From: a virus
IMG/VR virus record: IMGVR_UViG_3300037247_000684
Coordinates: 1-45,767 of that record
Length of the DNA: 45,767 nucleotides
Strand: one strand, 5' to 3'
The position numbers and the translations under genes are program-made. The notes under the pieces are model-generated. The model was not told the DNA's origin. It was given only the letters and a program-made list of their open reading frames with translations, and did no database searches. Below are positions 1-45,767 of this stretch, one piece after another (positions within the stretch are counted from its first letter, which is position 1; each line of letters starts with the position of its first letter).

Positions 1-64
1 CACTTTGCCTAAATTGCAACTCGAACAAATCGCTTTCCTGATACGGAGTGGGAGTTTCGGCTAT
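1..64. repeat. Near-identical terminal direct repeat, left copy
   Basis: These 64 bases match 45704-45767 at 61 positions; differences are at 5, 41 and 50. In the leftward tail tube frame all three are third-position silent changes. Joining the two copies keeps the reading frame exactly. I read it as the overlap of a circular assembly drawn from slightly different genomes, rather than a true terminal repeat or a gene duplication. Confidence 0.85.
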
Positions 65-550
65 TGGTAAGTTGTCATCAGTAAGGTCGGCAACTACCCA
101 ATCTGTGAAGTTGATTATTGGCTTTTCGTGGTCTCCATCTTCGGCATCAGTCGCATCCGAAGTATGAGCAACTAAACATCTATAAATTACCCTTGAGTAA
201 GTTACAAACTGCCCTACTATGTATTCTGTATCATCAGCCCAATTAGTCGGTTCCCCTGACCCAACTACCCTTCCGCCATCAAAAAACATTCTTATATACT
301 CCGGCCCCAATTCAAGAATATAAGCTATGGTATCGGAGAATTGAAAGGCCACCAACCGGCTCTTCTCGGAAGCGTTCTTGACCGAACCGATAAACTGTGT
401 GCCAGGTCTCCGCTCGGCGCTACCATAGATACGGGGAATCATATTATTCAGAGTCCGGCAACCGGCTGCGTATTTCAAAACGTCTGAGCGAGCGTCAATT
501 TGCGGGCTTAAAACACCAGCGTTAAACGATAATAAAGGAATATTTGGCAT
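1..550 (-). CDS. Tail tube protein B-like, N-terminal 183 codons (cut by window edge)
   Basis: This is the start of the large nozzle/tail tube protein of T7-like podoviruses (gp12-like). The ATG at 550 lies in a TAATG overlap with the upstream gene. The N-terminus (MPNIPLLSFNAG, then a YAAGCRTLNNM segment and RRPGTQFIG) is typical of the family, in which the first residues bind the tail adaptor ring. The frame leaves the window at base 1 and continues at 45703-43479. After the 64-base overlap is merged, the joined gene is 2775 nt and encodes 924 aa. The usual C-terminal domain is missing from it and sits in the separate gene at 41525-43285. Confidence 0.85.
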   Translation of the reverse strand, partial: MPNIPLLSFNAGVLSPQIDARSDVLKYAAGCRTLNNMIPRIYGSAERRPGTQFIGSVKNASEKSRLVAFQFSDTIAYILELGPEYIRMFFDGGRVVGSGEPTNWADDTEYIVGQFVTYSRVIYRCLVAHTSDATDAEDGDHEKPIINFTDWVVADLTDDNLPIAETPTPYQESDLFELQFRQS

Positions 551-957: not shown

Positions 958-2038
958 TTTTCTGTATGAAACAAATGTTAGGATAGAACGCAACCGTGCA
1001 AACGTCATTCCGTAAGCACATATCATTTATCATTTTTGCCACTCTATTCATAAGGACAGGTCTTTCTTCAACATATTTTTCCTTAAACCACACATCCTCT
1101 ATAACGTACCAGCCTTGCGAAGCCATACTTGGCCAAAGAGTTTCAAGACTTATTAAAATATCCTGTGGAATATGAGAACCATCATCAACAATTAAATCAA
1201 ATGGGCCTTCCTTGATTACTGTCTTCAAAAATTTAACATCAGTCTGGTCGCCAACAAATAATTTCAAGTCTTTGTTTTTCCTTAATATTTTAGCATTGGA
1301 AACGTCTTCCTTGTCCACGCCAAAGACTTTTGCTTTTGGAAATGCCTTTTTCCATAACAATAAAGATGCACCCCTCTTGACTCCTATTTCCAATATTCTG
1401 ATACGCCTATTACGAAGATTCACAAGACAGGTATCGTAACAATGAATGTAATCATGACACCAATACTTATCAGTAGAGGCGAAACCGTCTCTTGTAAATT
1501 GCTCAAACGCAACTTTTCCTATAAATCCAACATCTCGCCCACCTAAGATTTTCATTGCCTTCTTGCATTTTTTAAAGTTTCGAAACACACGCCCAACAAA
1601 CCACTTGCACTTCAAATGTTTTAATATAACGATTCTCCTATCGCCCTTTTTGATAATTAACTCTCCGTTATTTTTATATACATCTATTGGGATATTCATC
1701 CCATTATTTTTTATGTCGTTTATAAGAGAAATTCCACCTTTTATTTGCTCCATAGCGTGTCGTTTACCTTTGGGAGTTAAGGGGTCTCTGGTGCCTGGAT
1801 GTAAATGCTTAACAAGGTAATCAAAGTATGGCAAACTTTCCAATTCTTCATCCGTATATATCTCACCGCCTAAAACACTTAGTACAAAAGGCGGAAAAGT
1901 CTTATAAAATTCATAAGCTCCTCTCGGATTGTCCTCACTTCTTTTCTCAGGATGATAATGCTTTATAAAATTATCGTAAAATTCGTCTATGCGAAATCTC
2001 TTCAAGTAACATCCAAATAAATATGGATTTTTTTTCAT
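950..2038 (-). CDS. SAM-dependent methyltransferase with ParB-like N-terminal domain, 362 aa
   Basis: Start ATG 2038 overlaps the glycosyltransferase stop by ATGA. Residues about 104-143 look like a ParB/sulfiredoxin-type fold (PIDVYKNNGELIIKKGDRR, then ILKHL). Residues 210-320 are a class I methyltransferase: ILEIGVKRGAS (215-225) is the SAM glycine motif, GVDKED (240-245) the acidic end of beta-2, and VDDGSHIPQD (284-293) matches CmcI/macrocin-type O-methyltransferases. These act mainly on sugars or small molecules. Coupling to a multi-domain glycosyltransferase suggests a joint role in making or capping a glycan on the virion or host surface. The substrate cannot be read from sequence. Confidence 0.75.
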   Translation of the reverse strand: MKKNPYLFGCYLKRFRIDEFYDNFIKHYHPEKRSEDNPRGAYEFYKTFPPFVLSVLGGEIYTDEELESLPYFDYLVKHLHPGTRDPLTPKGKRHAMEQIKGGISLINDIKNNGMNIPIDVYKNNGELIIKKGDRRIVILKHLKCKWFVGRVFRNFKKCKKAMKILGGRDVGFIGKVAFEQFTRDGFASTDKYWCHDYIHCYDTCLVNLRNRRIRILEIGVKRGASLLLWKKAFPKAKVFGVDKEDVSNAKILRKNKDLKLFVGDQTDVKFLKTVIKEGPFDLIVDDGSHIPQDILISLETLWPSMASQGWYVIEDVWFKEKYVEERPVLMNRVAKMINDMCLRNDVCTVAFYPNICFIQKNG

Positions 2039-4545
2039 ATTCCCATCTTCTCTATTAACTTGTGAGCGTTGCCCCACCGTAAAGTAGTGTCTATTGGACT
2101 ATCAACTGTAGTTGACATTGCTTTGTGCATACCAGAATTGTGATGAACATTAACTATTGAACGCTTTGTCTTAAATTCACTATAACCAAAATCCTTGAGA
2201 TTTTTCGGCCTGTTATCTCCGTGTTCAAGATTAGAAGACCATTCTGGTTTGTCTTTTAAGATTTCATTTATCCGCTCAATCAGATATTGCCTATTGCCCA
2301 TAAGCGAACAAAGAGACGAAGATGATTTTCTCAAGTAACATTGCTTTTTGGGAACAAGTCTCAAGATATTTCTATTATAATAAGCCTTATCCTTTGTCGG
2401 TCTAAAAGTAAAATGCTTGGGTGGGTATAAACAATCAGCCTGTGCCATTGCCACGTATTTAGTCGTGGCTTTTTCCGCACCGATTAAAAATTGTCTTAAC
2501 ACATTTTGGCTCGACCGACCTACATCACCTATGCAAATATTCTCCCCGAAATCCATCGGTTTCTGAGAAACAGATATTATCTTGTTGCCGTTGACAGATT
2601 TCAGCAATTCTGACTGTATAATATTTGTCATAGATTCTTGTTCTCTATTAGATGTTACATAAATTACTGTCATATCGCTCCAGCCAGGAACCGGAGAGAA
2701 GTGGTCTATCAACCATTGAAACTTCCTTTTGGCGTGAGGCCATTTATCGCCTATCCACAATTCCACTGACCGTTTATAAGACCGTCTCTTCTCATTAGCG
2801 CCGAGGGCGTAACTTGCCTTTCCCCTGTTCCAGTGAGCGTACCAGGTATTCTTATTAACTAAGACCTTCCCACCGGATAACCACGTCATACAAGAAATCT
2901 CCACCCCTTCCTGCCCGAAAGTGCCGTGTTTCTCATCCATTCCGCCCCAACCGAGGAATTGCTCCCGTTCCATAAGCCAGTTAGAGCCGGAAATCGTCAT
3001 TGTCTCGCCTATCTGCTCGTCTTTATGGAGTTTAGCCCACTCAGGCCAAGCCAAACCCCTTAAAGACAATCCCTTGGGGTCTATCGAGTGATGAGATAGA
3101 TACCTATACGGGCAATCAGTTCGGTCTCTTCGAGTCCAGTTACTTGATTTTAACTCATATCTCATAGCCAAGACGGTATTCCCAGGTTCGCAGCATTTGA
3201 TAAGCTCAGTGTCTATTCCTTTATCGACTATGCAATGAGCGTCTAACCTCATTAGATATTTACCTTTTGCCATTTTCACCATTTTGTTAATCATCGGGCG
3301 CATACCGATACGTTCACTATGACACAAGATAACTCGCGGGTCTTTCTTGAGTTCCGGCTCGTATCCGTCAAGTCCGACAATAATCTCGAAATTAGTAGTC
3401 AGCTTATCAAGGCAATCATCAATGGTCTTTTGGAGATATATTTCGTTGCGGGCGGGAATGATAACGGACAACAGTGGTTTCTTTTCTATCTTAACCAACT
3501 CCCAAGTAGGTATAGGTTGAAACTTCTCCAACAGCCACTTGAAAGGTCTTTTCGCCAAAGGCCATTTATCATTCAGCCATAAATCCCTCGAATATTTTTC
3601 GGATTGTTGTTGTGAACTACCTGGATTCTTGTATGGAAAACTAAACATATCAGTAGTTCTGAAAAGATGGGCAAACCACGTTTTTCTATTAGTAACGTGC
3701 CTGCCGCCAGACAACCACGCCTTACATCCCACTTCAACTCCGACTTGCCCCCAGCTTCCGTGTTTCTCGTCAAGACCGCCCAACTCCAAAAATCTCTCTT
3801 TGTGTTGAAACCAACAAGCCCCGACCCCGTTCATAATATCGACTATATCACCCTTTGATTCTTTCCTCTTGGCGTACTTGTACCAGTATTGGACTTTGAG
3901 GTCTCTGTCCATATACATAAAGTCAGTTTTCTTGTGAAGACGTGGCTTCCAAACCTCTTCCATTTTCACAGGATTTTCACAATTCAATTTAATTAGTGAA
4001 TCTAATTGTTCTATTCTTACTTGTTTTTCTTTTAAATATTCTTCATATCCTTTTATTCCCTTTTTTCTCTTTTCTTCTTCTGCTTTTTTGTAAATATATG
4101 CTAATTCAAATTTTGGCACATCAGAACATCTTTTGGGATAACATCTATGGTTTTTATCAGGATTGGCCTTATCTTGATAAAATCTATGTTCGCCACAGAC
4201 CCAATCGAAGGCGTGAAGATTATACATTCTCGGTATGACCGTCCAGTCGTACTCACAGTCGGCGGCGAGTTTAACATCGAAGCCCTTATCGAACATCGAA
4301 TGGGCATCGGTTTTGAGAATGTACTTACCTTTGGCTATCCGAGCCGCTTCGTTTACGGCGGCACGTTGACCTACCGGATTAGTATGGTGGATTAAGGTTA
4401 CTCTTGGGTCGTCTTTTATAGGCTCAGGCCAATATCCATCTAAGATAGCAATGACCTCTATCTCACCTTCGGCGGATTCTAAAATTGAATCTATCGTCCT
4501 ACCGAGAAGAAATTCATTTCGTGCTGGTATTAAAACCGAAATCAT
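2035..4545 (-). CDS. Multi-domain family 2 glycosyltransferase, 836 aa
   Basis: Two clear GT-A modules lie in tandem. Module 1 begins at residue 1 (ISVLIPARNE), with DGYWPEP near 36-42 and DAH at 80-82 as the metal/sugar-binding acidic motif. Module 2 begins near 358 (LSVIIPARNE), with DGYEPEL near 393 and DAH at 435-437. Residues from about 625 form a third, diverged GT-like part (VIYVTSNREQE, then AQADCLYPP). Each of the first two modules ends with a conserved GGLDEKHGSWGQ / GGMDEKHGTFGQ segment followed by WLSGG. No membrane segment is visible, so it is likely cytoplasmic. It is far longer than a usual single-domain GT2 and is an accessory insertion between the two tail tube genes. Confidence 0.85.
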   Translation of the reverse strand: MISVLIPARNEFLLGRTIDSILESAEGEIEVIAILDGYWPEPIKDDPRVTLIHHTNPVGQRAAVNEAARIAKGKYILKTDAHSMFDKGFDVKLAADCEYDWTVIPRMYNLHAFDWVCGEHRFYQDKANPDKNHRCYPKRCSDVPKFELAYIYKKAEEEKRKKGIKGYEEYLKEKQVRIEQLDSLIKLNCENPVKMEEVWKPRLHKKTDFMYMDRDLKVQYWYKYAKRKESKGDIVDIMNGVGACWFQHKERFLELGGLDEKHGSWGQVGVEVGCKAWLSGGRHVTNRKTWFAHLFRTTDMFSFPYKNPGSSQQQSEKYSRDLWLNDKWPLAKRPFKWLLEKFQPIPTWELVKIEKKPLLSVIIPARNEIYLQKTIDDCLDKLTTNFEIIVGLDGYEPELKKDPRVILCHSERIGMRPMINKMVKMAKGKYLMRLDAHCIVDKGIDTELIKCCEPGNTVLAMRYELKSSNWTRRDRTDCPYRYLSHHSIDPKGLSLRGLAWPEWAKLHKDEQIGETMTISGSNWLMEREQFLGWGGMDEKHGTFGQEGVEISCMTWLSGGKVLVNKNTWYAHWNRGKASYALGANEKRRSYKRSVELWIGDKWPHAKRKFQWLIDHFSPVPGWSDMTVIYVTSNREQESMTNIIQSELLKSVNGNKIISVSQKPMDFGENICIGDVGRSSQNVLRQFLIGAEKATTKYVAMAQADCLYPPKHFTFRPTKDKAYYNRNILRLVPKKQCYLRKSSSSLCSLMGNRQYLIERINEILKDKPEWSSNLEHGDNRPKNLKDFGYSEFKTKRSIVNVHHNSGMHKAMSTTVDSPIDTTLRWGNAHKLIEKMGI

Positions 4546-4743: not shown

Positions 4744-5535
4744 TTATAGGAACCGTTCCTCTCCAGTCATTATCCCCAAACCACCAGAACGGGCTAAAAT
4801 CCAGTCACTTCTACCGCCAACATCCGTTTCGTTATTGTCTATCGCTCGAACTTGAGCCATTAGAGGTTTTAGCTCATTCTTTATTTCGGCGGATAAAGCT
4901 AAAGAAGCACTACCCGCTCCGGCTCGCGCGGGAATCAATTTCAAGGCCAACTGCAAGACGAGAACTTCAATATACAAAGAGTCGAACTTCGTAACGTCCG
5001 TAATCTGTTTGATATACAAAAGACTCACTTCGGAAAGGTTAGTCAGAAGTTTTTGCCCTTCGAGCGCGTGCCTTCTCTTTTTTGAAGTAACGCCAGTCTC
5101 TTCAAAGATAGACCTGAACCTCAAATAGTCGGCAGGTAATGTCCATTCAAAGTCCCATTCAGAATCAGGCACATAGTCAACCGACGTGAGTGTAGTCCAA
5201 AAAGTACCGGCAACAGCGCCGACTCCAGGCTCATCGTCCAAATCGCCGGAAGTATGAGCTACAAGACACTTATAAAAAACATCGTTATTCGATACATATT
5301 GGTCGGTAGTATAAACTGTACCCGTTGCCCAGGCCGAGACGAGGTTTATCCTGTCCCTTGCGAACCGCCACCAGTGAGACCTTTGCAAAGCGTCTCTGTT
5401 CTGCTCGTAATGACGATTACACGCCTGCGCCCGAGGGTCGGTATCGGCAGTCAACTGAGCGGAAGTAATGGCCTTCTCACCTATTCTGTCTAAAGATAAA
5501 TTACATACATCGAGTTTTACTGTTGGTAGAGCCAT
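4744..5535 (-). CDS. Tail tube protein A-like (head-tail adaptor), 263 aa
   Basis: The N-terminus has the pattern of the T7 gp11-like adaptor family: CNLSLDRIGEKAITS, then RAQACNRHYEQNRDALQRSH and WWRFARDRINL. In this family twelve copies form the ring joining the portal to the nozzle. A middle insert (GTVYTTDQYVSNNDVFYKCL, then ahTSGDLDDEPG) resembles a small carbohydrate-binding-like segment and recurs in tail tube protein B here (TEYIVGQFVTYSRVIYRCLV). Length is a little above T7 gp11 (196 aa), explained by that insert. It is separated from tail tube B by the glycosyltransferase block. Confidence 0.85.
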   Translation of the reverse strand: MALPTVKLDVCNLSLDRIGEKAITSAQLTADTDPRAQACNRHYEQNRDALQRSHWWRFARDRINLVSAWATGTVYTTDQYVSNNDVFYKCLVAHTSGDLDDEPGVGAVAGTFWTTLTSVDYVPDSEWDFEWTLPADYLRFRSIFEETGVTSKKRRHALEGQKLLTNLSEVSLLYIKQITDVTKFDSLYIEVLVLQLALKLIPARAGAGSASLALSAEIKNELKPLMAQVRAIDNNETDVGGRSDWILARSGGLGIMTGEERFL

Positions 5536-5538
5536 AAC

Positions 5539-6252
5539 TTATACTCCGTATCTTGAACGAGTTACTTCGTAATCACTTCTGATCTCAGTAGCAGATAATT
5601 CTTTTTTATCTATCATTAACTCGTCGATGAGGCCGTTGGCGTAAACTGTGTTAGAACGGCCTATCCAGACGTCGTGGTCGAGGTTTTCGACAGAGACGAA
5701 AGAACCAGCATTGGTTTGAAAATTTCCATCATCAATCTGAGCAGCATTTAGATACAGTTTAACACCAGAGCTTAAAGTACCTCCATTATATGTTACAACA
5801 AGACGTACCCAAGTATTTTCATAACTGGTTAAAGTAGAAGATGTAAGCCTTCCAATGCGACAATTATCGACGCTTTCATCGTACACATTAAAAAATAATG
5901 TATCAGAACCACTTAAAGCAAATAACCATTCTCCATCTGTATTGTAAAGCCCCTTACTTGCGAGGATGAAATTGGTTGCATCGTGCATATAAACCCAAAT
6001 TCTAATACTAAGCGGGGTAAGAGCTGGCGTGAAATCAGCGTGGTCAGCAACGACAATGTGTTCATTTGTACCTGGTAAATCAATTCCTGGATATTTGAAT
6101 GACGGTGACGTTCCTGTTACGGTTCCGATATGCCCGTTAAGACTATAATCAAAGAGTTTCACCGGAGACGTCAATCCCGCCCAGGGTTTTAAGTGTAGAA
6201 TGGTATCCGCCCCCGTTCTTGGTCGGGGTTCTAAATATTTCGCGTCATACAT
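5539..6252 (-). CDS. LamG/concanavalin-like domain protein, 237 aa
   Basis: After about 30 residues the protein is one LamG-type beta-sandwich: FDYSLNGHIGTVTG, then LSIRIWVYMHDATNF, WVRLVVTYNGG, VKLYLNA, IDDGNFQT and GLIDELMIDKKELSATEI. The last segment is the usual end of the Laminin_G_3 fold. Such domains bind sugars or proteins and are common in phage appendages. It starts in a TAATG overlap with the 122-aa gene and precedes the tail adaptor. A virion surface or receptor role is inferred. Confidence 0.75.
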   Translation of the reverse strand: MYDAKYLEPRPRTGADTILHLKPWAGLTSPVKLFDYSLNGHIGTVTGTSPSFKYPGIDLPGTNEHIVVADHADFTPALTPLSIRIWVYMHDATNFILASKGLYNTDGEWLFALSGSDTLFFNVYDESVDNCRIGRLTSSTLTSYENTWVRLVVTYNGGTLSSGVKLYLNAAQIDDGNFQTNAGSFVSVENLDHDVWIGRSNTVYANGLIDELMIDKKELSATEIRSDYEVTRSRYGV

Positions 6253-6630: not shown

Positions 6631-6846
6631 TTATTTTTTTCCAAATATCTTTTCGTAATTCTTGTCATACTTTTTTTTATTAACTGGCCGAAAATGGTCT
6701 CCTTTGCCTGAACTCACCGGACTACCATCTCGGTTGCAGTATCCTGCCTTTGCGTTTCGGCGAAAAACTTCTTCCTTGACGTTACTTTCGCTTTCGTTCC
6801 AATGAATTATTTCGCCGCCTGATTTCGCCCGTTTTAATATTTCCAA
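6631..6846 (-). CDS. Hypothetical protein, 71 aa (TTG start)
   Basis: A small basic protein with tail KKKYDKNYEKIFGKK. The frame has only a TTG start at 6846, a few codons after an upstream in-frame stop and overlapping the previous gene by 13 nt. A GAAAGA site lies about 10 nt upstream. No family recognised. Confidence 0.5.
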   Translation of the reverse strand: MEILKRAKSGGEIIHWNESESNVKEEVFRRNAKAGYCNRDGSPVSSGKGDHFRPVNKKKYDKNYEKIFGKK

Positions 6847-7001
6847 AACATTAATCTTTCATACCATCGAAGATTATCGTAAAAAATGCGGGCGCATTTT
6901 CTACACACATGCACCCGCCTGTTGTCTATTATTCTTGGTATGCACAGAAAATGCCCACACTTACGGCACGGTTCAACTAAACTTATTAGTTGCCCTTGCA
7001 T
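6834..7001 (-). CDS. Small zinc-ribbon protein, 55 aa
   Basis: ATG 7001 overlaps the 31-aa gene stop by TAATG. Two CxxC motifs (CRKCGHFLC and VCRKCARIF) about 20 residues apart form a probable zinc ribbon, followed by an aromatic tail (RWYERLMFWKY). Too short for the usual ORF cutoff but supported by the overlap chain. Confidence 0.55.
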   Translation of the reverse strand: MQGQLISLVEPCRKCGHFLCIPRIIDNRRVHVCRKCARIFYDNLRWYERLMFWKY

Positions 7002-7096
7002 TACTTCTTCTCTTTTGAGTCATCAATTTCTTTTGGATTCTCCAACTTCATCCATTCCCTTTTTGCCGATAATTTATTTGCTTTTTTGTCTGCCAT
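7001..7096 (-). CDS. Very small charged protein, 31 aa
   Basis: ATG 7096 has AAGGAAAC as ribosome site. The product starts MADKKANKLSAKREW and is Lys/Glu-rich. It is coupled to the next gene by TAATG. Function unknown. Confidence 0.5.
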   Translation of the reverse strand: MADKKANKLSAKREWMKLENPKEIDDSKEKK

Positions 7097-7151
7097 TATT
7101 TGTTTCCTTAAAAAAGAGAGAAAGGGCGGTTGCCCACCCCTTCCCAAATAA

Positions 7152-7958
7152 CTAAATCGAAATCTGTAACATCATCATCGGTGCGCCTTGGCCACCAGGG
7201 TCGCCCTGGCCCCAAGTCATTACGAATCCAGCATGTTGGCTTTGCTTTGTAGTTGCAGAACCAGCGTCATGTGTTTCGACAGAACCGTCATGCCGGAAAA
7301 CAAGTTGGTCAGAACCAGCAGTAACAGTACCAACATCAGCTTGCGGTGAAATCCAACATACACCCCACGTTTGAAGCCAGGTGTAATCTCCATCCGCAGT
7401 TACCCTTGTAGGTAAACCGATGATAGTTCTGTTTGAACTTCCACCAGGAGTCACATCGAGATAAGGACTGGAATGTGCCTCGATAACGTCAGATGTAGTC
7501 AAAAGAACATCCATAGGGACATCAAAAAATATTGTCATTGGATTAGCGCCATCAACTACAGAATTACCAACGATAGTACGCCGGATAGATTTAGCTGAAT
7601 TGTCAAAAATGACAAAATTTCCACCAGCCAAACCATCTTTAAGTATGACCCCATCGCCTGCAACGCCATCACTTGCGCCAACGGTGCAAATCAAGTCGGT
7701 AGCACCCAAAGAACCTGACACTATCGCAGCAAAAGAAACTTCCTGCGGTCTTAGCTGTTCACATCCCTGGTTGGGATTAAGTACGCCATTAGCAAGGGAA
7801 TACTTGTAAACCTTTCCATCCCAGGTGATGTATCTCGTACCAAACATAAATCTCTGAATGGTATCGAGACCATACACGCCAAATTCGTGTGCCGAAAGAG
7901 CGAAATCTCTCGGTTGAGCCCCATCAAAAAGAGGCCCTTTGTTAAATTGAAAATTCAT
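7152..7958 (-). CDS. Probable virion protein next to capsid, 268 aa
   Basis: The gene follows the major capsid gene by 13 nt with an AAGGAG site. The protein is beta-rich and Gly/Ser/Thr-rich, without catalytic motifs: DAQ-type N-terminus (FDGAQPRDFALSAHEFG), a VGTVTAGSDQLVF segment, and a C-terminus GQGAPMMMLQISI. I recognise the type as a conserved hypothetical beside Phage_capsid-like genes in environmental podoviruses. A decoration or cement role is inferred from place and composition. Confidence 0.6.
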   Translation of the reverse strand: MNFQFNKGPLFDGAQPRDFALSAHEFGVYGLDTIQRFMFGTRYITWDGKVYKYSLANGVLNPNQGCEQLRPQEVSFAAIVSGSLGATDLICTVGASDGVAGDGVILKDGLAGGNFVIFDNSAKSIRRTIVGNSVVDGANPMTIFFDVPMDVLLTTSDVIEAHSSPYLDVTPGGSSNRTIIGLPTRVTADGDYTWLQTWGVCWISPQADVGTVTAGSDQLVFRHDGSVETHDAGSATTKQSQHAGFVMTWGQGDPGGQGAPMMMLQISI

Positions 7959-7971
7959 AATAGGCTCCTTT

Positions 7972-8892
7972 CTAAGCTACTTGATTGAGGCATTCGTGGA
8001 CTTTTACACCTTCCATTCTGACGGCGCCTAAATCCATCTTCGAGAAGAGTACCCAGGCAAAGTCGAGCCTTTCAGCCTCTTCTATACGAGTGGAAATGTC
8101 GCCAATGGAAGCCAGGATTAAACCATCCTGTGCCCACGCAAACGAACGAAATGCAGTTGAGGTTACACCGTCTTTGAGAAGACGGTTGCTCCAGAAGAAA
8201 TTGAACCCGCCATAGAAAGTAAAAGCACCTTGTTGAAGTGCCCTGACAGTATTGAAATCAATACTGCCGACTTCCGTAACATTCAATATATCCTCGACCG
8301 CCTTCGGCGTAATTGCCCAGATTTTTTGAATGTCAGGGTCAACATCTTCTTCGTTAAACAGTCGCATCATAGTCAGTATCTTGTCAAGTCCAAAGTCGGC
8401 TACGGACTGTACCGAGGCAAGTGTGCCCAATGTAGTTACCGTACCGTCGCCGTTGATTGACCTTGCCTCGTCTTTAAAAGCTACTGTACTTCCACCGGCC
8501 TTGCCGATAGAGGCTGTACCTAAAGCTGCTTCGATTATCAAGTCATCTTTCTGCCTTCCGAGCGACCTGACCTGGTTCATCGCTACGGGGTTACGTGGGT
8601 CTGGCAGCATTCTGTCAAGGTCTTCCTTGTCCAGAACCTTTTTGTTCGTCCAGGGACGGGGTACGACCCTTCTCCTGCCGAACTCGGCTTCGGAAATCGG
8701 AGTCCCCTGATGCCGACCCGTCTTCTGCGCCGTATCGTCGTCTTCCGCCAGGGTATCGAAATATGCAAGCTCAGCGCTTTCAACGGATTCGTTGCGCACT
8801 TTCGATGCAAACTTCGAGCCTTGCTGCTGGGAGAGTAGATACAAAACAGAAGCGAACTTCTGTGCTGTTACTTGGTCGATTGTGACAGCCAT
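7972..8892 (-). CDS. Major capsid protein, 306 aa
   Basis: It is placed directly after the scaffold gene as expected. The sequence matches the HK97-fold capsid group of environmental podoviruses: N-arm DQVTAQKFASVLYLLSQQQ, then GRRRVVPRPWTNKKVLDKED, a QKDDLIIEAALGTA helix, and a C-terminal SKMDLGAVRMEGVKVHE beta region with acidic ERLDFAW. Length suits a T=7-type capsid. ATG 8892 has AAGGAG. A 125-nt gap upstream, larger than elsewhere in this operon, has short inverted repeats that may tune high expression. Confidence 0.85.
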   Translation of the reverse strand: MAVTIDQVTAQKFASVLYLLSQQQGSKFASKVRNESVESAELAYFDTLAEDDDTAQKTGRHQGTPISEAEFGRRRVVPRPWTNKKVLDKEDLDRMLPDPRNPVAMNQVRSLGRQKDDLIIEAALGTASIGKAGGSTVAFKDEARSINGDGTVTTLGTLASVQSVADFGLDKILTMMRLFNEEDVDPDIQKIWAITPKAVEDILNVTEVGSIDFNTVRALQQGAFTFYGGFNFFWSNRLLKDGVTSTAFRSFAWAQDGLILASIGDISTRIEEAERLDFAWVLFSKMDLGAVRMEGVKVHECLNQVA

Positions 8893-9017
8893 AGTATTCT
8901 CCTTAAAACATATTTAACGGTGTACGACAAAGCTACCGTCAACGGAGACGACTATGCCTTCATTTTACGCCTGATGGGCGGTCGTTTAGGTACGGCGACC
9001 GTCTGGATTCCGAAGAA
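8893..9017 (-). promoter_or_regulatory. Capsid gene leader with short inverted repeats
   Basis: This 125-nt gap between scaffold stop and capsid start is long for the operon. It can form a CGGTCG/CGACCG stem and an ACGGT/ACCGT stem. No convincing sigma-70 promoter is visible. Capsid expression control is only inferred. Confidence 0.35.
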
Positions 9018-9911
9018 CTACCCAGGCTTTTCGGGATTTGCTAATCTATAGAATTTGTCCCATTCTTCTTTAAGTCTATCGTATTCAGGTTTGTTTACAT
9101 TTTGCAAAAACTGACCTTTATCATCCGGCAATAAGAAACCAGGTGTATTCTCAATCTTCTTGGCCTCAATCAGCGCATCGGCAGGTGTAATACCGGTGGC
9201 CGGTTCTGTTTCCGAGATACTTTTATGTTCACTGTATTTGGCAGATATGTTAAATAATAATTCAGCAAAGGAAATATTATTATCCAGAGCATTAAGTACG
9301 GCCTTTTTGTGTTCATCGTCATTGGTAAAATCAGCTACCATACGATTAGCCCGATGGAGTTTGTCTGCGTTATTCGCCGACCATTCCGAAAAAGCGTTGT
9401 CCGCTTCAAGCTCTTGATTGGCAATGGCTTTAAGAGAAGTCCTGATTCGCTTTTCTTCAAACTCCCATAACCTGTCAACTTTCTTCTGGTCGAAACCCAG
9501 CTCGAAGAAAATGTCCCTTGCCTCGGCTATGAGGTTCTTATCGTAAACCTCGGCCAATTCATCGGCAACCTTCATTTGGTACAGGTCTTTGGTATCCGGC
9601 CTGCCCATTTCACGATGGAAGTTGTCCCACTCAGAAGGCGGAGACGCTTCGCCAGGTATGATAACGCCTTTCTTGCCTATCATATTCTGGAGACTGCCTA
9701 ACATCTTCAATCCACCACCGACGTCATCGAAGGTATCGAAAACCTTATCAGCCCTCATTTCTTCTGGTACGTAATGCTCTTTCCAACCTGGTAAGTATTT
9801 TCCGTCTTTATCTATGAATGTTTGCGGTTCTTGCGCTACCTGTTGAGCAGACGGGTCTCCCGTTGTTTGTGGGTCGCTCGCTACCTGTGTCCCAGACGCT
9901 GGTTCTGTCAT
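9018..9911 (-). CDS. Capsid scaffold protein, 297 aa
   Basis: It lies between portal and capsid genes. The N-terminus is disordered (Thr/Gln/Pro-rich), then EHYVPEEMRADKVFDTFDD and GSLQNMIGKKGVIIPGE, a pattern I associate with podovirus scaffolds. A long charged helical middle (residues about 110-240) and a C-terminal DRLKEEWDKFYRLANPEKPG follow. Scaffolds guide capsid assembly and leave the head. The start overlaps the 83-aa gene stop by 4 nt. Confidence 0.8.
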   Translation of the reverse strand: MTEPASGTQVASDPQTTGDPSAQQVAQEPQTFIDKDGKYLPGWKEHYVPEEMRADKVFDTFDDVGGGLKMLGSLQNMIGKKGVIIPGEASPPSEWDNFHREMGRPDTKDLYQMKVADELAEVYDKNLIAEARDIFFELGFDQKKVDRLWEFEEKRIRTSLKAIANQELEADNAFSEWSANNADKLHRANRMVADFTNDDEHKKAVLNALDNNISFAELLFNISAKYSEHKSISETEPATGITPADALIEAKKIENTPGFLLPDDKGQFLQNVNKPEYDRLKEEWDKFYRLANPEKPG

Positions 9912-10159
9912 AAGATTTTCCTTTCGCTAATTACTGTTTCCTGTTTTTGTTCCGTTTTACGTTTTAACATATACCTGATATGCCTTATCACCGAATTAGC
10001 GCCGAGATTAAAGTCTGTCTTTCTGGCACTATTGACATCAAATATATCAGCGTTCTCTAAGCAAAACTTCGACAAATCGCCAATTACTATTTGAGCCTTT
10101 GCATCATCAGCCGATAAGACATCCTTGTAAGCGGCTATTACTTTTTGCTGTTCGTCCAT
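9908..10159 (-). CDS. Bbp19-like small head protein, 83 aa
   Basis: The pattern AAYKDVLSADDAKAQIVIGD, then GANSVIRHIRYML, resembles the Bbp19 family found beside phage portal genes. It is probably a minor head or packaging-associated protein. Both ends overlap neighbours. Confidence 0.6.
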   Translation of the reverse strand: MDEQQKVIAAYKDVLSADDAKAQIVIGDLSKFCLENADIFDVNSARKTDFNLGANSVIRHIRYMLKRKTEQKQETVISERKIL

Positions 10160-10221
10160 TATCTTTTTTTCTTTTTCTTGTGTTTCTTTTTTCGGCGTTC
10201 TTTTGGTGTATGTCCTGGCAT
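10159..10221 (-). CDS. Tiny Lys/Arg-rich protein, 20 aa
   Basis: MPGHTPKERRKKKHKKKKKR joins neighbours by TAATG on both sides, so it looks translated. Very basic peptides starting MPGH occur in similar places in other phages. It may bind DNA or capsid charge; this is inference. Confidence 0.45.
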   Translation of the reverse strand: MPGHTPKERRKKKHKKKKKR

Positions 10222-10382
10222 TATTTTGGTTTCCTTTCTGCTTCCACGCTAAAATCGTCTCTGTTCATTTTCTGCGGCTTACCATCATTTAGTGAAAACT
10301 CCATTTCGTCATAATCCACCGCCATCTTGTAGCAATATTGAATCTTGCCGTTATTTGTTACTTTGAATCCACCTTGTGCCAT
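10221..10382 (-). CDS. Hypothetical protein, 53 aa
   Basis: ATG 10382 follows GATAGGAG. Sequence includes VTNNGKIQYCYKMAVDYDE. It sits in the portal-scaffold gap; role unknown. Confidence 0.5.
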   Translation of the reverse strand: MAQGGFKVTNNGKIQYCYKMAVDYDEMEFSLNDGKPQKMNRDDFSVEAERKPK

Positions 10383-41073: not shown

Positions 41074-41556
41074 ATGGCTACCGAAATCATAACAAAACAA
41101 TGTCCTCGTTGCAAAGAAACTAAATCGCTGTCGAGATTTTACAAATCTCATAATAGAAGAAATGGTTGCCAAGTTTACTGCATAAATTGCACAAAAGAAC
41201 ATTGGCAAACCAAAGAATATAAAACTATTCAAAAGCGATATCACCAAAGTAAAAAAGCTAAAGTTGCAAATAAAAAATATCAACAAAGCGAAAAAGGGAA
41301 AGCAATGTTGAAAAGAAAAAATAAACTTTCCTACATTAAAAATCCCGAAAAATGGAAAGCCAATCGTTCTATCAGCCACGCTGTTAGAGATAATAAATTG
41401 CCTCATCCCAATACTTTGCAATGTCATTATTGTCCTAAACAAGCTGAAGAATATCATCATCCGGACTATAGTAAGCCCTTGTATGTACTTCCAACTTGCA
41501 AAAAATGTCATAGAATTATTCATACTAACGTCCTGTTTTGTCCTTTCTCGGAATAA
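41074..41556 (+). CDS. HNH homing endonuclease-like, 160 aa, inserted
   Basis: Start ATG 41074 has AAGGAG. It shows QCPRCKETKSLSRFY..CINC zinc motif, a basic linker with QSEKGKAM, and CHYCPKQAEEYHHPDYSKP, then LPTCKKCHRIIH, the HNH core. It is the only plus-strand gene in the late region, lies between tail and internal virion genes, and its end overlaps the opposite gene by 32 nt. Paralogue of the gene at 23980. Signs of a mobile insertion. Confidence 0.8.
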   Translation: MATEIITKQCPRCKETKSLSRFYKSHNRRNGCQVYCINCTKEHWQTKEYKTIQKRYHQSKKAKVANKKYQQSEKGKAMLKRKNKLSYIKNPEKWKANRSISHAVRDNKLPHPNTLQCHYCPKQAEEYHHPDYSKPLYVLPTCKKCHRIIHTNVLFCPFSE

Positions 41557-43285
41557 TCGCCCGCACCGTGCACGCGAACACATCATTGCCTGAAATGTAA
41601 ATCCTATCGTCTATGGAATAACCGCCGTCAAACGAAACTTTTATATCTCCTGTATTCAATGAAGTTGTCGAATCCCAGTCAATATCTTTCAAATCGTCAA
41701 GTGAACTGCCATACTTGGCATTTAACGTATTCAAGAAGGAAATTACTATCTCTGCAATATGGCCGATACTCCCGTGAGAAGTACCGCCCGCTCCGGTAAT
41801 ATCAAGTCTCATCGGACTTAGAGTAAACCTAAAGGAAAGTCCTACAATCGCTTTCCTTACGAAATTATGAGCGTGGGGACTCAATACCATAAGGGTAATT
41901 ATCCCACCGGAAACAGTCTCATCATCATAAGCTATTGTTACATCATTTACGTCCGTACCCATTATCTTTACGGTTTCACCTTCCAAGTGAGATAAACTGA
42001 CGAAGGTATTCTCAACGTGCTGTGTTGACCCATCGGAGATATAAGCACCAAAACCGGACGTATCTAATTCGTCTCCTGAAGAGCTTGGAGAAGCCGATGG
42101 ACTTGATGATGGGCTTCCCGTAGGCGTGGCAGAAGGACTTGAACTTAGAGAAGCCGATGGCGTTATGCTTGCAGAAGCCGAAGGACTTGAACTTATCGAA
42201 GTTGAAGGCGTTCCGGATGGTGAAGCTGATATCGAAGCGGATGGCGTTCTTGACAGACTTGCGGATATACTCGAAGATGGCGAACTTGAAATCGAAGATG
42301 ATGGCGATGCCGAAGGTGTCCTTGAAGCACTTGCGGATGGACTTGATGAGATACTCGCTGATGGAGTATTACTTAGCGAAGCCGATATACTTGACGATGG
42401 CGAAGCCGAGATACTCGTACTTGGACTTGCGCTTATCGAAGACGAGATACTGGCCGAAGGTGTATTACTTGCAGAAGCCGAAATCGAACTTGATGGACTT
42501 GACGAAATCGAACTGGAAGGACTTGACGAAGGCGTTCCAGACGGACTGGAAGAAATCGAAGATGAAATCGAAGAGCTAATCGAAGCCGAAGGCGTTCTCG
42601 AAAGCGAAGCAGAAATACTTGCACTTGGACTGGAACTTATCGAAGAACTTACTGCACTTGCCGGTTGAATTGCTACTGATACGGCTATCCATTCTTCTGA
42701 GCCTGTTAAAGAAAACGCTGCCGTTCCCGTTGCACCTGTTGTTACTTGTGATTCATAAGCGGCGCCACCAGAAACTATCGTCTGAGGAAAATCATCTACA
42801 TTTTTATCCACAGTAATAACGGTTGTACCAGCAGGTTCGCCACCATCTACTGTTATTTCGTGACCATCAGCACCGAATATCCTTAAAATCAAACAATCAT
42901 CTTTCGTTGTTGTAACAGAAGGACAAGTAGGAGATGCAGAAGTACCTACTCCTAAACCACTGATATTTATAGGCGTACTGGTATCATAGTTGGTAATCCG
43001 CATTATGAAACCATAAACACCTCTTTGATTAGACCAACTAAATGTATAATCAGCACCTTCGCTTGCACCAGCTATCTTATAGGATATTGAAATACTTATT
43101 GCTACTGTGTTATCGCTCTGTATTTCAGTCCAGCCGGAAGGAAGCGTTATTATATTATCCCTCTCGACAGAAATGACCGCTACCATTAAATCGTTTTCAA
43201 CCACTCCGGCAGGTTTATTTATAGTAACATTTACATTAAGAGAGCCTTTGGCTTCTGTAAAACTTTGAAAACTTGGTACTGTCAT
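41525..43285 (-). CDS. Adhesin-like domain, Ser-rich repeats and tail tube B C-terminal domain, 586 aa
   Basis: Residues 1-210 are a beta-sandwich (TINKPAGVVENDLMVAVISV, ITLPSGWTEIQSD, then DDCLILRIFGADG) found in phage surface proteins. Residues about 211-402 are almost only Ser, Pro, Ala, Ile, Thr in SISSSPSAS-type repeats. Residues about 405-586 (TSGFGAYISDG, SHLEGETVKIMGTDV, VSGGIITLMV and a FLNTLNAKYG helix) match the C-terminal domain normally ending tail tube protein B, absent from the gene at 43479. Start overlaps the 66-aa gene by ATGA. Confidence 0.75.
   Translation of the reverse strand: MTVPSFQSFTEAKGSLNVNVTINKPAGVVENDLMVAVISVERDNIITLPSGWTEIQSDNTVAISISISYKIAGASEGADYTFSWSNQRGVYGFIMRITNYDTSTPINISGLGVGTSASPTCPSVTTTKDDCLILRIFGADGHEITVDGGEPAGTTVITVDKNVDDFPQTIVSGGAAYESQVTTGATGTAAFSLTGSEEWIAVSVAIQPASAVSSSISSSPSASISASLSRTPSASISSSISSSISSSPSGTPSSSPSSSISSSPSSSISASASNTPSASISSSISASPSTSISASPSSSISASLSNTPSASISSSPSASASRTPSASPSSSISSSPSSSISASLSRTPSASISASPSGTPSTSISSSPSASASITPSASLSSSPSATPTGSPSSSPSASPSSSGDELDTSGFGAYISDGSTQHVENTFVSLSHLEGETVKIMGTDVNDVTIAYDDETVSGGIITLMVLSPHAHNFVRKAIVGLSFRFTLSPMRLDITGAGGTSHGSIGHIAEIVISFLNTLNAKYGSSLDDLKDIDWDSTTSLNTGDIKVSFDGGYSIDDRIYISGNDVFACTVRAIIPRKDKTGR
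42078..42655 (-). repeat. Degenerate DNA repeats coding Ser/Pro/Ala tract
   Basis: About 580 bp of short, imperfect repeats (units of roughly 9-24 bp, read on the plus strand as GAAGCCGAnGGACTTGA and variants). Codons vary while the residues stay the same, so the protein pattern is selected. Strong open frames on the other strand here are shadows. Confidence 0.8.
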
Positions 43286-43482
43286 TTCTTATTCTCTTCT
43301 TTCAGGAATTTCTGGTATGCTACTTCAGCCTGCATATCTCTTAAAAATCCACTGTTGTAACGACCGCCTAAAATTCTTGATAACATTTCTTTTTCTTTGT
43401 TTGATAACGGTTTTCTAATAACCGTTTCAGATTTTATTACTGGTTTTGTATCTATCACTGGTTGTCCGAATAAAAAAGTCAT
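43282..43482 (-). CDS. Hypothetical protein between split tail genes, 66 aa
   Basis: MTFLFGQPVIDTKPVIKSET, then LSNKEKEMLSRILGGRYNSG and a charged helix. Overlaps both neighbours by ATGA, so it is translationally coupled to both halves of tail tube B. Function unknown. Confidence 0.6.
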   Translation of the reverse strand: MTFLFGQPVIDTKPVIKSETVIRKPLSNKEKEMLSRILGGRYNSGFLRDMQAEVAYQKFLKEENKK

Positions 43483-45767
43483 ACACTTGCGCTCGCACTT
43501 ACAGAAGAACTTGGAGAGCTACTTATACTCGCGCTCGGTGAACTGCTCGGAGACGAACTAATCTCAACAAAAGTCCTTAGTTCCGTACTTGTTTTAGTTG
43601 TATTTCCTAACGTATAGAAATTACCATTCAACTCTGTCATTCCCAAAACGCCGGTAATGTAAATCTGGTCGCCATCTTTCAATCTTTGGCTGCCGTCGCT
43701 ATTGGTATTATCGAAACTTACTACCCCTGGATTGGCCTGGGTAACGTTGGTAATTACAATAGGGTCGCCACCGTCAAATATCAAACCTGAATCCACAAAG
43801 AACGAATCCTCGAAGTCAACGCCTACCCTCGGTTTCATTCGCTCGATTTGCCTCACGGTAGAACCGTCCACCGTTCTTGAGGTACTGAGCCAAATCTCAT
43901 CTTCGGTTGTTCCTGGTATCACCGCTACGGACTCGGCCTTGGCGGAAGTTCCACCTAACGGATGGACAGACCAGGCGATAACGTCCTGGTCTCTTTCATA
44001 GGACATTGACAATAAATTACCGTTAGTAAGTGTTGACCATACAATCGCATCGGGATTTCTCTGGTAATCCAAACTGGTAATTCCCGTCAATGTGATATGC
44101 TCCGCCAATGCACTCAAATCAGGAGCTACATACTTCTGCTTCTCATCGAGGAACGTCATTTCCCTTATCTTGCGACCTACGAAGTCCACGAACAAAATAG
44201 CGTCACCGACAGGAATAGGTTGGAGCTTTTTACTACCATAAGAAGTCTGCTGCCTCTCGTCGAAATTAGTAGGAGTCAACGCCTCGTCAATAGCGGTCGC
44301 CCTTATCCGCCATTCACCGCCTATCGTACCCAAAAGAAGCGCATCTAAAGCAGATAACCACCTGATAGCATTCATATTATCTGAAGACATCGTAAGAGAA
44401 AATGAATCACTATCGTTTATCCCTTCCTCGAAATCCTCGAAATCATCTACTTCACTTAACCATACTGTCTGGGGCTGTTTGGAAGTTCCGGCATATACAG
44501 ACCTACTACTAAAGAAGGTAAACGCTGTTGGATAACCTCTGAAAGCACTCCAAGCACCCTCAGACCATCTCTTGGAAGCATCGGTAGAGGCAAAATTAGT
44601 TAAAATAGTAGCCGTTACTTCCATAGAATTAACAAAAGTATTTATTCTACATATTCCGCTTTCAGTTGAATTATTTACCGTTAAATCGACATTTAATGTA
44701 CCACTCGTAGAAGAAGTTACACTTACTCTATATTGAACATTATTGAATTCTTCATTTCCTGTAAATTGAATGTTCCTATCACTATTGGAAATGAACGTCC
44801 TAAACGTTTCCCAGCCTTCGGAGTTTTCGTTTCTTTCCAACTTGACCGTCATATCCCAAGTCCCGTGAGTATTAAACGAAAATGTACCTTTAACATCTAT
44901 AGGCGAACTTATAACTCCGGTAGTCGGATGGGCGGATGAGCCAGAAGTCTCGGTCGTAGCCCGCGCGTGAGTTATCTTGAATAGTGCCCCTGGCGCGGAT
45001 ATATGCGCTGAATTAAACACTGGCGCCGAAGCGATTAAAGTTACTTTTTTATAAGTAGTATTGACATCCTGTGTACCCCAAGACTCTAATTCATAAACTA
45101 TACAATCAGCAAAGGCATTACTACCTACCCAGTAACTTTTATTAGTTAAAGTTATTCTGACAGCAGTAACATCAGTCCAGGGGCCAAGGATACCAACTTT
45201 ATTATTTGTAGATGTACCTATTTCTGTCCAGACAGCACCTTGTTTAATCTGGACAGAAACAGTTCTTGTCACCGTACCGTTATTAAACCAACCTATCCAA
45301 TATTTGACTTCATCAAGTCTTACAACTGTAACATCAAAGGTTATTGTAATTGTCATCGCCGAGGTTGCACTCCACCAAGTGCGAAATTCACGTTTAGTAT
45401 TGTGTCCTCGGCGCTTTCGGAAAGTCGTAGTATCTCCATCGTTAGTTTCAGCAACAGTACCGGAGGCCGTACCTGAAGCACCAGATTCAACAGCAACACC
45501 ATCCTCAATCGAAGCTGCGAAATTAGCAGAATCATCTCCTGTGCTACTTGGAGTTATGGTAACATCATCGTTATTTTCAAGGTCGTTTCTCGGAAGAAAT
45601 GGCCCTTTGGTAAAACTTATAATTGACAAATCAAACGAAGTAGTGGTAGTTCTGGTTAATTTCCTCGGTGCGTAATCGGGATGAACTATCCACATCACGT
45701 CGGCACTCTGCCTAAATTGCAACTCGAACAAATCGCTTTCCTGGTACGGAGTTGGAGTTTCGGCTAT
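43479..45767 (-). CDS. Tail tube protein B-like, main part (continues from 1-550)
   Basis: Enters the window at 45767 in frame with IAETPTPYQESDLFELQF and runs to the stop at 43479. HPDYAPRKLTR, ATEASGS-type loops, then AFTFFSSRSVYAGTSKQPQT, WLSEVDDFEDFEEG, LLGTIGGEWRIRA and LDYQRNPDAIVWSTLTNGNL, LSMSYERDQDVIAWSVHPLG are the nozzle-protein signature of this podovirus group. The last about 27 residues are a Ser/Pro/Ala tract (EISSSPSSSPSASISSS) replacing the usual C-terminal domain, which is in the 586-aa gene. Confidence 0.85.
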   Translation of the reverse strand: MAETPTPYQESDLFELQFRQSADVMWIVHPDYAPRKLTRTTTTSFDLSIISFTKGPFLPRNDLENNDDVTITPSSTGDDSANFAASIEDGVAVESGASGTASGTVAETNDGDTTTFRKRRGHNTKREFRTWWSATSAMTITITFDVTVVRLDEVKYWIGWFNNGTVTRTVSVQIKQGAVWTEIGTSTNNKVGILGPWTDVTAVRITLTNKSYWVGSNAFADCIVYELESWGTQDVNTTYKKVTLIASAPVFNSAHISAPGALFKITHARATTETSGSSAHPTTGVISSPIDVKGTFSFNTHGTWDMTVKLERNENSEGWETFRTFISNSDRNIQFTGNEEFNNVQYRVSVTSSTSGTLNVDLTVNNSTESGICRINTFVNSMEVTATILTNFASTDASKRWSEGAWSAFRGYPTAFTFFSSRSVYAGTSKQPQTVWLSEVDDFEDFEEGINDSDSFSLTMSSDNMNAIRWLSALDALLLGTIGGEWRIRATAIDEALTPTNFDERQQTSYGSKKLQPIPVGDAILFVDFVGRKIREMTFLDEKQKYVAPDLSALAEHITLTGITSLDYQRNPDAIVWSTLTNGNLLSMSYERDQDVIAWSVHPLGGTSAKAESVAVIPGTTEDEIWLSTSRTVDGSTVRQIERMKPRVGVDFEDSFFVDSGLIFDGGDPIVITNVTQANPGVVSFDNTNSDGSQRLKDGDQIYITGVLGMTELNGNFYTLGNTTKTSTELRTFVEISSSPSSSPSASISSSPSSSVSASASV
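45704..45767. repeat. Near-identical terminal direct repeat, right copy
   Basis: Partner of 1-64; differs at 45708, 45744 and 45753. Confidence 0.85.

Follow-up and report, generated by a model that had tools for sequence, protein, structure and literature searches.

A podophage tail nozzle encoded by two separate genes, with a putative adhesin on the platform half

The podophage tail nozzle is a pressure-bearing gate whose chain would be expected to be inviolable, and the locus analyzed here raises the question of whether such a nozzle can be encoded, and kept, as two separate proteins. An earlier note on this DNA had described a tail tube protein B whose C-terminal domain is missing from a 924-aa protein and lies instead at the end of a separate 586-aa protein, and the complementary positions of phrog_376 matched by the 2 proteins agree with this. 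The coordinates and all details of that description that we checked were correct. The window, that is, the whole stretch of DNA analyzed, is the complete IMG/VR record IMGVR_UViG_3300037247_000684 of 45,767 bases, and the features of the locus are the following.

2..550 (-), N-terminal part of the 924-aa nozzle protein, 183 aa, 21 of them overlapping the other end (phrog_376 positions 8-124, E 2.1e-38)
43479..45767 (-), first nozzle protein, with the propeller core and the first part of an FCCH-like domain (phrog_376 positions 170-567 of 712, E 8.9e-115; core profile E 5.7e-143)
43572..43757 (-), initial portion of the FCCH-like domain, covering 1-56 of the 83 profile positions (own profile, whole-window scan, E 1.4e-12)
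43482..43562 (-), 27-aa Ser/Pro/Ala tail at the C-terminus of the first nozzle protein (from the sequence, a 26-residue run with Ser at every second position)
43479..43482 (-), ATGA overlap of the nozzle stop and the start of the 66-aa gene (from the sequence)
43282..43482 (-), 66-aa gene (in the other 3 split viruses, the corresponding site encodes 69, 88, and 79 aa)
43282..43285 (-), ATGA overlap of the 66-aa gene stop and the start of the 586-aa gene (from the sequence)
41525..43285 (-), second nozzle protein, 586 aa, with a putative adhesin, Ser-rich linker, last FCCH strand, and platform domain (profile, sequence, model, and structure alignment)
42656..43285 (-), beta domain of about 210 aa at the N-terminus of the second protein, a putative adhesin (57-65% conserved in 4 viruses; beta strands in a low-confidence model)
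42074..42655 (-), Ser-rich linker, 194 aa, predicted disordered (54% Ser, 12% Pro; pLDDT about 28-37)
42011..42079 (-), final strand of the FCCH-like domain, covering 58-80 of the 83 profile positions (own profile; ranked second among FCCH matches in the window, E 0.054)
41528..42022 (-), nozzle platform domain, sole copy in the window (C-terminal-domain profile E 2.3e-57, next best 0.038)

The propeller core of the first protein is homologous to that of known podophage nozzles of phrog_376 (tail tubular protein B, 712 positions), both in the family match (E 8.9e-115) and with our core profile (E 5.7e-143; this and the platform profile were built from few sequences, with split viruses among them), and the 924-aa protein reaches up to position 567 of the family. 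Its gene spans the circular joint on the minus strand, with 183 codons at 2-550 and 762 at 43479-45767, of which 21 residues are shared, so that the product leaves the window at 45767 with 762 aa visible. The terminal 64 bases of the window (1-64 and 45704-45767) are identical at 61 of 64 positions, and the 924-aa length and the N-terminus depend on joining ends that carry these 3 mismatches. Because this overlap falls within the nozzle gene, the circular join mixes 2 near-identical sequences. The N-terminal part (2-550) has a CBM_5_12 match (PF02839, 34.0 bits against a cut-off of 26.2); a carbohydrate-binding match of the same family was found in the adaptor-like tail protein at 4744-5535, and many relatives have an FCCH-like domain at roughly the nozzle position of the N-terminal CBM_5_12 of the window. 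An insert of about 150 aa (window about 45000-45560), for which the Pfam search found no family, is present in the relatives L013 and L023 and absent from L002, otherwise the nearest relative. The first nozzle piece ends in ISSSPSSSPSASISSSPSSSVSASASV-stop.

The detached C-terminal domain of the second protein is the nozzle platform. Residues 406-581 of the 586-aa protein match phrog_376 positions 556-707 (E 4e-13), and our own profile identified a single platform domain (E 2.3e-57) among 993 window frames; the platform is present in the genome and carried by the second protein, with core and platform on 2 proteins instead of 1 polypeptide. In the model of this protein, residues 422-586 mostly have a pLDDT of 80-90, and the top 4 VIA-align rows for the domain were the C-terminal parts of 4 nozzle structures, namely 9efk 660-818 (Z 8.0, 148 residues, 4.6 A), 7y22 609-790 (Z 7.2), 8ck1 656-829 (Z 6.9), and 9vvr 608-781 (Z 6.3). 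These Z values are middling, yet in agreement with the sequence match. Foldseek with the 586-aa model returned nothing at E 0.001 or better.

The remainder of the second protein consists of the Ser-rich tract, which sits immediately before the platform domain, and the N-terminal beta domain. Pfam searches identified no family for the 586-aa protein or for its L013 and L023 counterparts, and fibre families were absent from its PHROG and Pfam matches. With tblastn, the putative adhesin domain matched minor tail proteins and hydrolases of actinophages (E 1e-2 to 3e-5); used alone as a query against viral contigs it gave no confirmed relative, and an alignment of 3 adhesin proteins brought up L023-L025 as new contigs. 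The model of this domain has low confidence (pLDDT about 30-68), and VIA-align of residues 1-140 gave mostly immunoglobulin-like rows at Z 4-5 and one pilin at 5.2, too weak for a fold name. Neither the adhesin fold nor the FCCH-like fold is established by the models, in which both regions have low confidence. From its position, divergence, and architecture, we guess that the beta domain is a receptor-binding adhesin.

Between the 2 halves, as the earlier note had described, lie the 66-aa gene and the adhesin-like domain, joined by ATGA overlaps at 43479-43482 and 43282-43285, and Ser-rich repeats occur at both break points (the 27-aa tail of the first protein and the 194-aa tract before the domain of the second). 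In PHROG- and Pfam-type family searches, every match of the 66-aa protein and its counterparts fell short of the cut-off or had an E value over 0.1. In each of the 4 split viruses, the genes overlap by 1-4 nt at both junctions. Such joints are ordinary by themselves, because short overlaps are common in this genome, with 1- or 4-nt overlaps in 7 of 20 neighboring minus-strand gene pairs of the window (pairs chosen by eye).

We identified the same 3-gene order and the same break in 4 viruses, comprising the window, L002, L013, and L023. Nozzle identity to the window was 92.4% in L002, 55.5% in L013, and 61.5% in L023, and platform identity 94.5%, 54.1%, and 51.4%, respectively; between L002, which comes from another metagenome set, and the window, the adhesin was 65.0% and the small protein 38.3% identical. 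L013 and L023 encode a nozzle core lacking the C-terminal domain, then a small protein of 88 and 79 aa, and then a protein of 568 and 560 aa, respectively, with the same beta domain, Ser-rich tract, and platform. L024 is the L023 virus in another set, at 99.99% identity. In total, 103 loci were classed including the window (L001), and with the best 80 of 102 relatives retained in one search. Removal of L001 and 7 duplicates left 95 distinct contigs, among them 6 records from a phage collection, with L023 and L024 counted apart. The nozzle was intact in 80 of these contigs and split at this place in 4 (3 viruses), the core was in 2 ORFs in 3 (L007, L008, and L059), 7 had the core only (in 6, the contig stops before the gene is complete), and 1 had neither. 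The split arrangement is stable, as the earlier note had supposed, and is kept in 4 viruses; it is neither a chance stop nor, in all likelihood, a misassembly.

The break itself appears, from profile matches, to fall in the loop preceding the last strand of an FCCH-like domain located between propeller and platform. Our FCCH profile has 83 positions and was built from 16 unsplit copies with the split viruses excluded, the copies having been chosen with an earlier profile that included them. In each of the 4 split viruses, the profile match starts at position 1 and runs to 55-58 in the first protein, then continues from 58-61 to 80-82 in the second; in the window, the full set of FCCH-like strands is reached only by taking the 2 proteins together (1-56 plus 58-80 of 83). 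The Pfam model E1_FCCH (PF16190) gave 21.9 bits for the first part in the window, under the cut-off of 29.5, and exceeded this cut-off in L013 (36.3 bits) and L023 (31.2 bits). The last-strand match is short, at 10.7-11.5 bits across the split viruses, and ranks next after the first FCCH half among the 993 window frames (E 0.054).

In L015 and L068, which have unsplit nozzles, the FCCH-like domain lies between propeller core and platform. We ranked 80 platform domains, those with an upstream stretch and with L024 dropped, by the last-strand motif just ahead of the platform; the window copy is absent from this set since the locus L001 ends inside the 586-aa gene. Ranks 1-6 were taken by L002, L013, and L023 together with the single-chain L015, L068, and L038, and no last-strand motif scored above 6 bits outside those 6. 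The spacing from the tyrosine of the last strand to the HLEG motif of the platform is equal in the window, L015, and L068, as read by eye. The matching last-strand rank and HLEG spacing point to a break within a single loop of a single domain; confidence in the FCCH part of the L068 model is low, with pLDDT values of about 48-68. Two points go beyond the earlier note, namely that the break would split the FCCH-like domain itself and that the detached domain is the platform, adjoining the T7 fibre-dock position.

The single chain of L038 (1167 aa) has a LamG domain in the corresponding FCCH loop, ahead of the YxSGG strand and the platform, and plausibly illustrates how the nozzle looked while its chain was still whole. 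We infer that the FCCH loop may be a place where binding domains get added, and that here the chain would have been opened 5' of the inserted domain, which would then retain a single tether. The earlier idea that a surface module was inserted into the nozzle fits both the LamG domain of L038 and a cassette between the halves that is more variable than either of them.

Rates of substitution between the window and L002 show equal, strong purifying selection on the 2 nozzle halves (dN/dS 0.072 for the nozzle part and 0.075 for the platform) and faster divergence of the putative adhesin (0.343); synonymous sites of the small protein are saturated. DNA identity drops right after the first ATGA and recovers within the second Ser tract. 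Runs of at least 8 S-x pairs occur in 20 of 1802 ORFs of at least 120 aa in the loci (duplicates included), all of them in the 4 split viruses, and the tracts are therefore not due to chance. In L013 and L023, a LamG protein adjacent to the nozzle has such runs as well.

The explanation that we favor, and consider probable, is a naturally split podophage tail nozzle in which 2 chains co-assemble, with a putative adhesin on a flexible arm of the platform half. The first chain would contribute the propeller and most of the FCCH-like domain, and the second a free-end beta domain, a long disordered Ser-rich arm, the last FCCH strand, and the platform. Coupled translation would make the chains in sequence, and they would co-assemble as one each per subunit of a 6-fold nozzle, held together by a composite platform barrel and by completion of the FCCH-like domain. 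According to the account of T7 in PMC6702177, the 6-fold nozzle sits under the adaptor and gates the DNA, the platform contacts the adaptor and is formed by the C-terminal domain together with 3 strands contributed by residues 1-45, and the propeller is linked to the platform by the fibre dock, which lies on the outer face. A platform barrel drawn from both chains in the T7 manner would, if valid here, lock the chains together. As a receptor-binding adhesin, the beta domain might be present in up to 6 copies on flexible arms at the place of the T7 fibre dock, and receptor binding could be relayed to the platform and gates. A binding role for nozzle parts is reasonable because the tail tubular proteins of Vibrio phage OWB are reported in PMC7241545 to bind a host receptor.

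We weighed this split nozzle against 3 other readings. The 586-aa protein could be an independent fibre anchored by a borrowed platform, with the 924-aa protein a truncated, platform-less nozzle; the second protein does have its own start, linker, and putative binding domain, and in the intact relatives L003-L006 a fibre-like gene with a T7-like fibre N-terminus directly follows the nozzle (by-eye sequence reading). However, there is only one platform domain in the window, the break passes through what looks like a single FCCH-like domain with both halves equally constrained, and the platform contacts the adaptor in T7 as described in PMC6702177, so a platform-less nozzle should not attach, and we regard this reading as unlikely. 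Still less probable, in our judgment, is that the chains are sometimes fused in translation by frameshifting or re-phasing at ATGA, giving a long-chain nozzle with the 66-aa and adhesin parts in the FCCH loop. The 1-4-nt overlaps at both junctions in 4 viruses and the single chain of L038 with an adhesin-like domain in that loop would suit such fusion, but it requires 2 shifts, one at each end of the small gene, the first tail varies in length from 27 to 5 aa, and, by eye, there is no classic slippery heptamer at the window junctions and there are Shine-Dalgarno-like purine stretches ahead of the second gene start in L013 and L002. In the third reading, miscalled bases or a collapse of repeats disrupted a gene that was originally whole and included the adhesin and the repeats; the earlier note had likewise worried that the repeats caused misassembly. 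Repeat tracts do lie on both sides of the break, and the ends of the window itself overlap imperfectly (61/64), but the identical break in L002, L013, L023, and L024, contigs from 4 other metagenome sets, refutes this concern, and the clean overlapping start and stop codons, the homologous small gene between them, and the purifying signal on each side of the break make an assembly or sequencing error extremely improbable.

How the split nozzle arose is a separate matter, and an adhesin cassette brought in by recombination between existing Ser-rich tracts would be compatible with the split-nozzle explanation. The restriction of Ser-x-Ser tracts to the split viruses, where L013 and L023 also have them in LamG proteins neighboring the nozzle, and the faster divergence of the cassette than of the halves are in favor of such exchange. 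However, the best DNA match of Ser tract against Ser tract is 46 nt at 72%, all 6 Ser codons are in use and mixed, the first tract is only 5-10 aa in 2 viruses, the divergence of the cassette may stem from selection, and the intact relatives are without any such tract as a possible target. We consider this origin doubtful, and of the interpretation given in the earlier note, stability and module insertion hold up, but recombination between the tracts does not find support as the mechanism.

Several further genes were identified around the locus. An HNH-type endonuclease gene (41074-41556 (+), phrog_2340, E 3.3e-24) lies on the opposite strand and shares the last 32 bases of the 586-aa gene; none was spotted at the corresponding site of L002, and L008 has a similar HNH-type gene at 7618-8058 (minus), convergent to the nozzle end. 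Between the adaptor and nozzle genes, the window encodes a glycosyltransferase family 2 protein (2 matches) and a methyltransferase at 2035-4545 and 950-2077, and the counterpart in L002 is one 946-aa ORF resembling both, by eye. The adaptor-like tail gene is located at 4744-5535 (phrog_394), and a LamG protein is encoded at 5539-6252. A separate fibre gene may lie elsewhere in the record, in view of this LamG protein and of the annotation, which covered the lesser part of 14-35 kb.

The conserved break suggests a 2-chain assembly in which a putative adhesin replaces a docked fibre. Tentatively, and at somewhat less than even odds, we suggest a further podophage way of mounting receptor-binding domains, with the nozzle cut within a small domain at the fibre-dock position and the platform half carrying an adhesin on a disordered arm and held in the virion by natural split-domain complementation. 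If true, the platform half would serve as a swappable cartridge for binding, and its pull could be exerted straight on the nozzle with its gate, which suggests a possible coupling of binding to gate opening. The locus also offers a natural split point for studies of nozzle assembly, and it carries a warning for annotation, as the platform half of a truncated nozzle may be hiding in the "hypothetical adhesin" encoded behind it.

The closest known system is the phrog_376 nozzle family, with solved members from Carin1 (8ck1), LME-1 (9efk), and T7 gp12 (9jyz and 6r21), in which a propeller core and a C-terminal platform are homologous to those of the window. These solved relatives align end to end with the model of the intact L068 nozzle (Carin1 8ck1, full-length alignment, Z 42.5, 619 residues, 2.8 A; T7 9jyz, Z 27.1, 538 residues, 3.6 A). 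Solved nozzles have core and platform on one polypeptide, whereas the window has them on 2, with an adhesin-like domain and a Ser-rich arm on the platform half. Among the papers listed in our searches of the open-access PMC literature, none describes a 2-protein split nozzle. The KP36 group (PMC6872550) offers a partial precedent, with a tail protein divided into 2 separate elements, the anchor and the receptor-binding parts; as presented in that account, the divided protein is the distal tail protein of a different group of phages rather than a nozzle, and the division does not run through a single domain.

Among nozzles, Xanthomonas phages CP2 and Olaya and contigs L007, L008, and L059 likewise have the protein in 2 neighboring ORFs. 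In CP2 and Olaya, the ORFs overlap by 1 nt and are divided upstream of the region matched by the propeller core profile (for Olaya, as given in the annotation). The break of L007, L008, and L059 is within the propeller core, and both sites differ from the propeller/platform break of the window; none of these 5 splits has a Ser-rich arm or a small gene between the ORFs. In L059 (split nozzle at 6644-10352), the second half starts with a non-nozzle stretch that is rich in repeats and has a weak, sub-cut-off match to GLUG, again an extra domain at the break. CP2 and Olaya are cultured phages recorded with named hosts, and a 2-chain nozzle can therefore be viable; these other splits show that breaks in the nozzle chain are tolerated. 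L038 shares with the split viruses an extra domain ahead of the YxSGG strand and platform, and differs from them in its unbroken 1167-aa chain and in having LamG in place of the beta domain. Against these systems, the conserved split nozzle is new within a known family, and what is surprising is the apparent break inside one domain and the joining of the platform to a flexible, adhesin-like arm.
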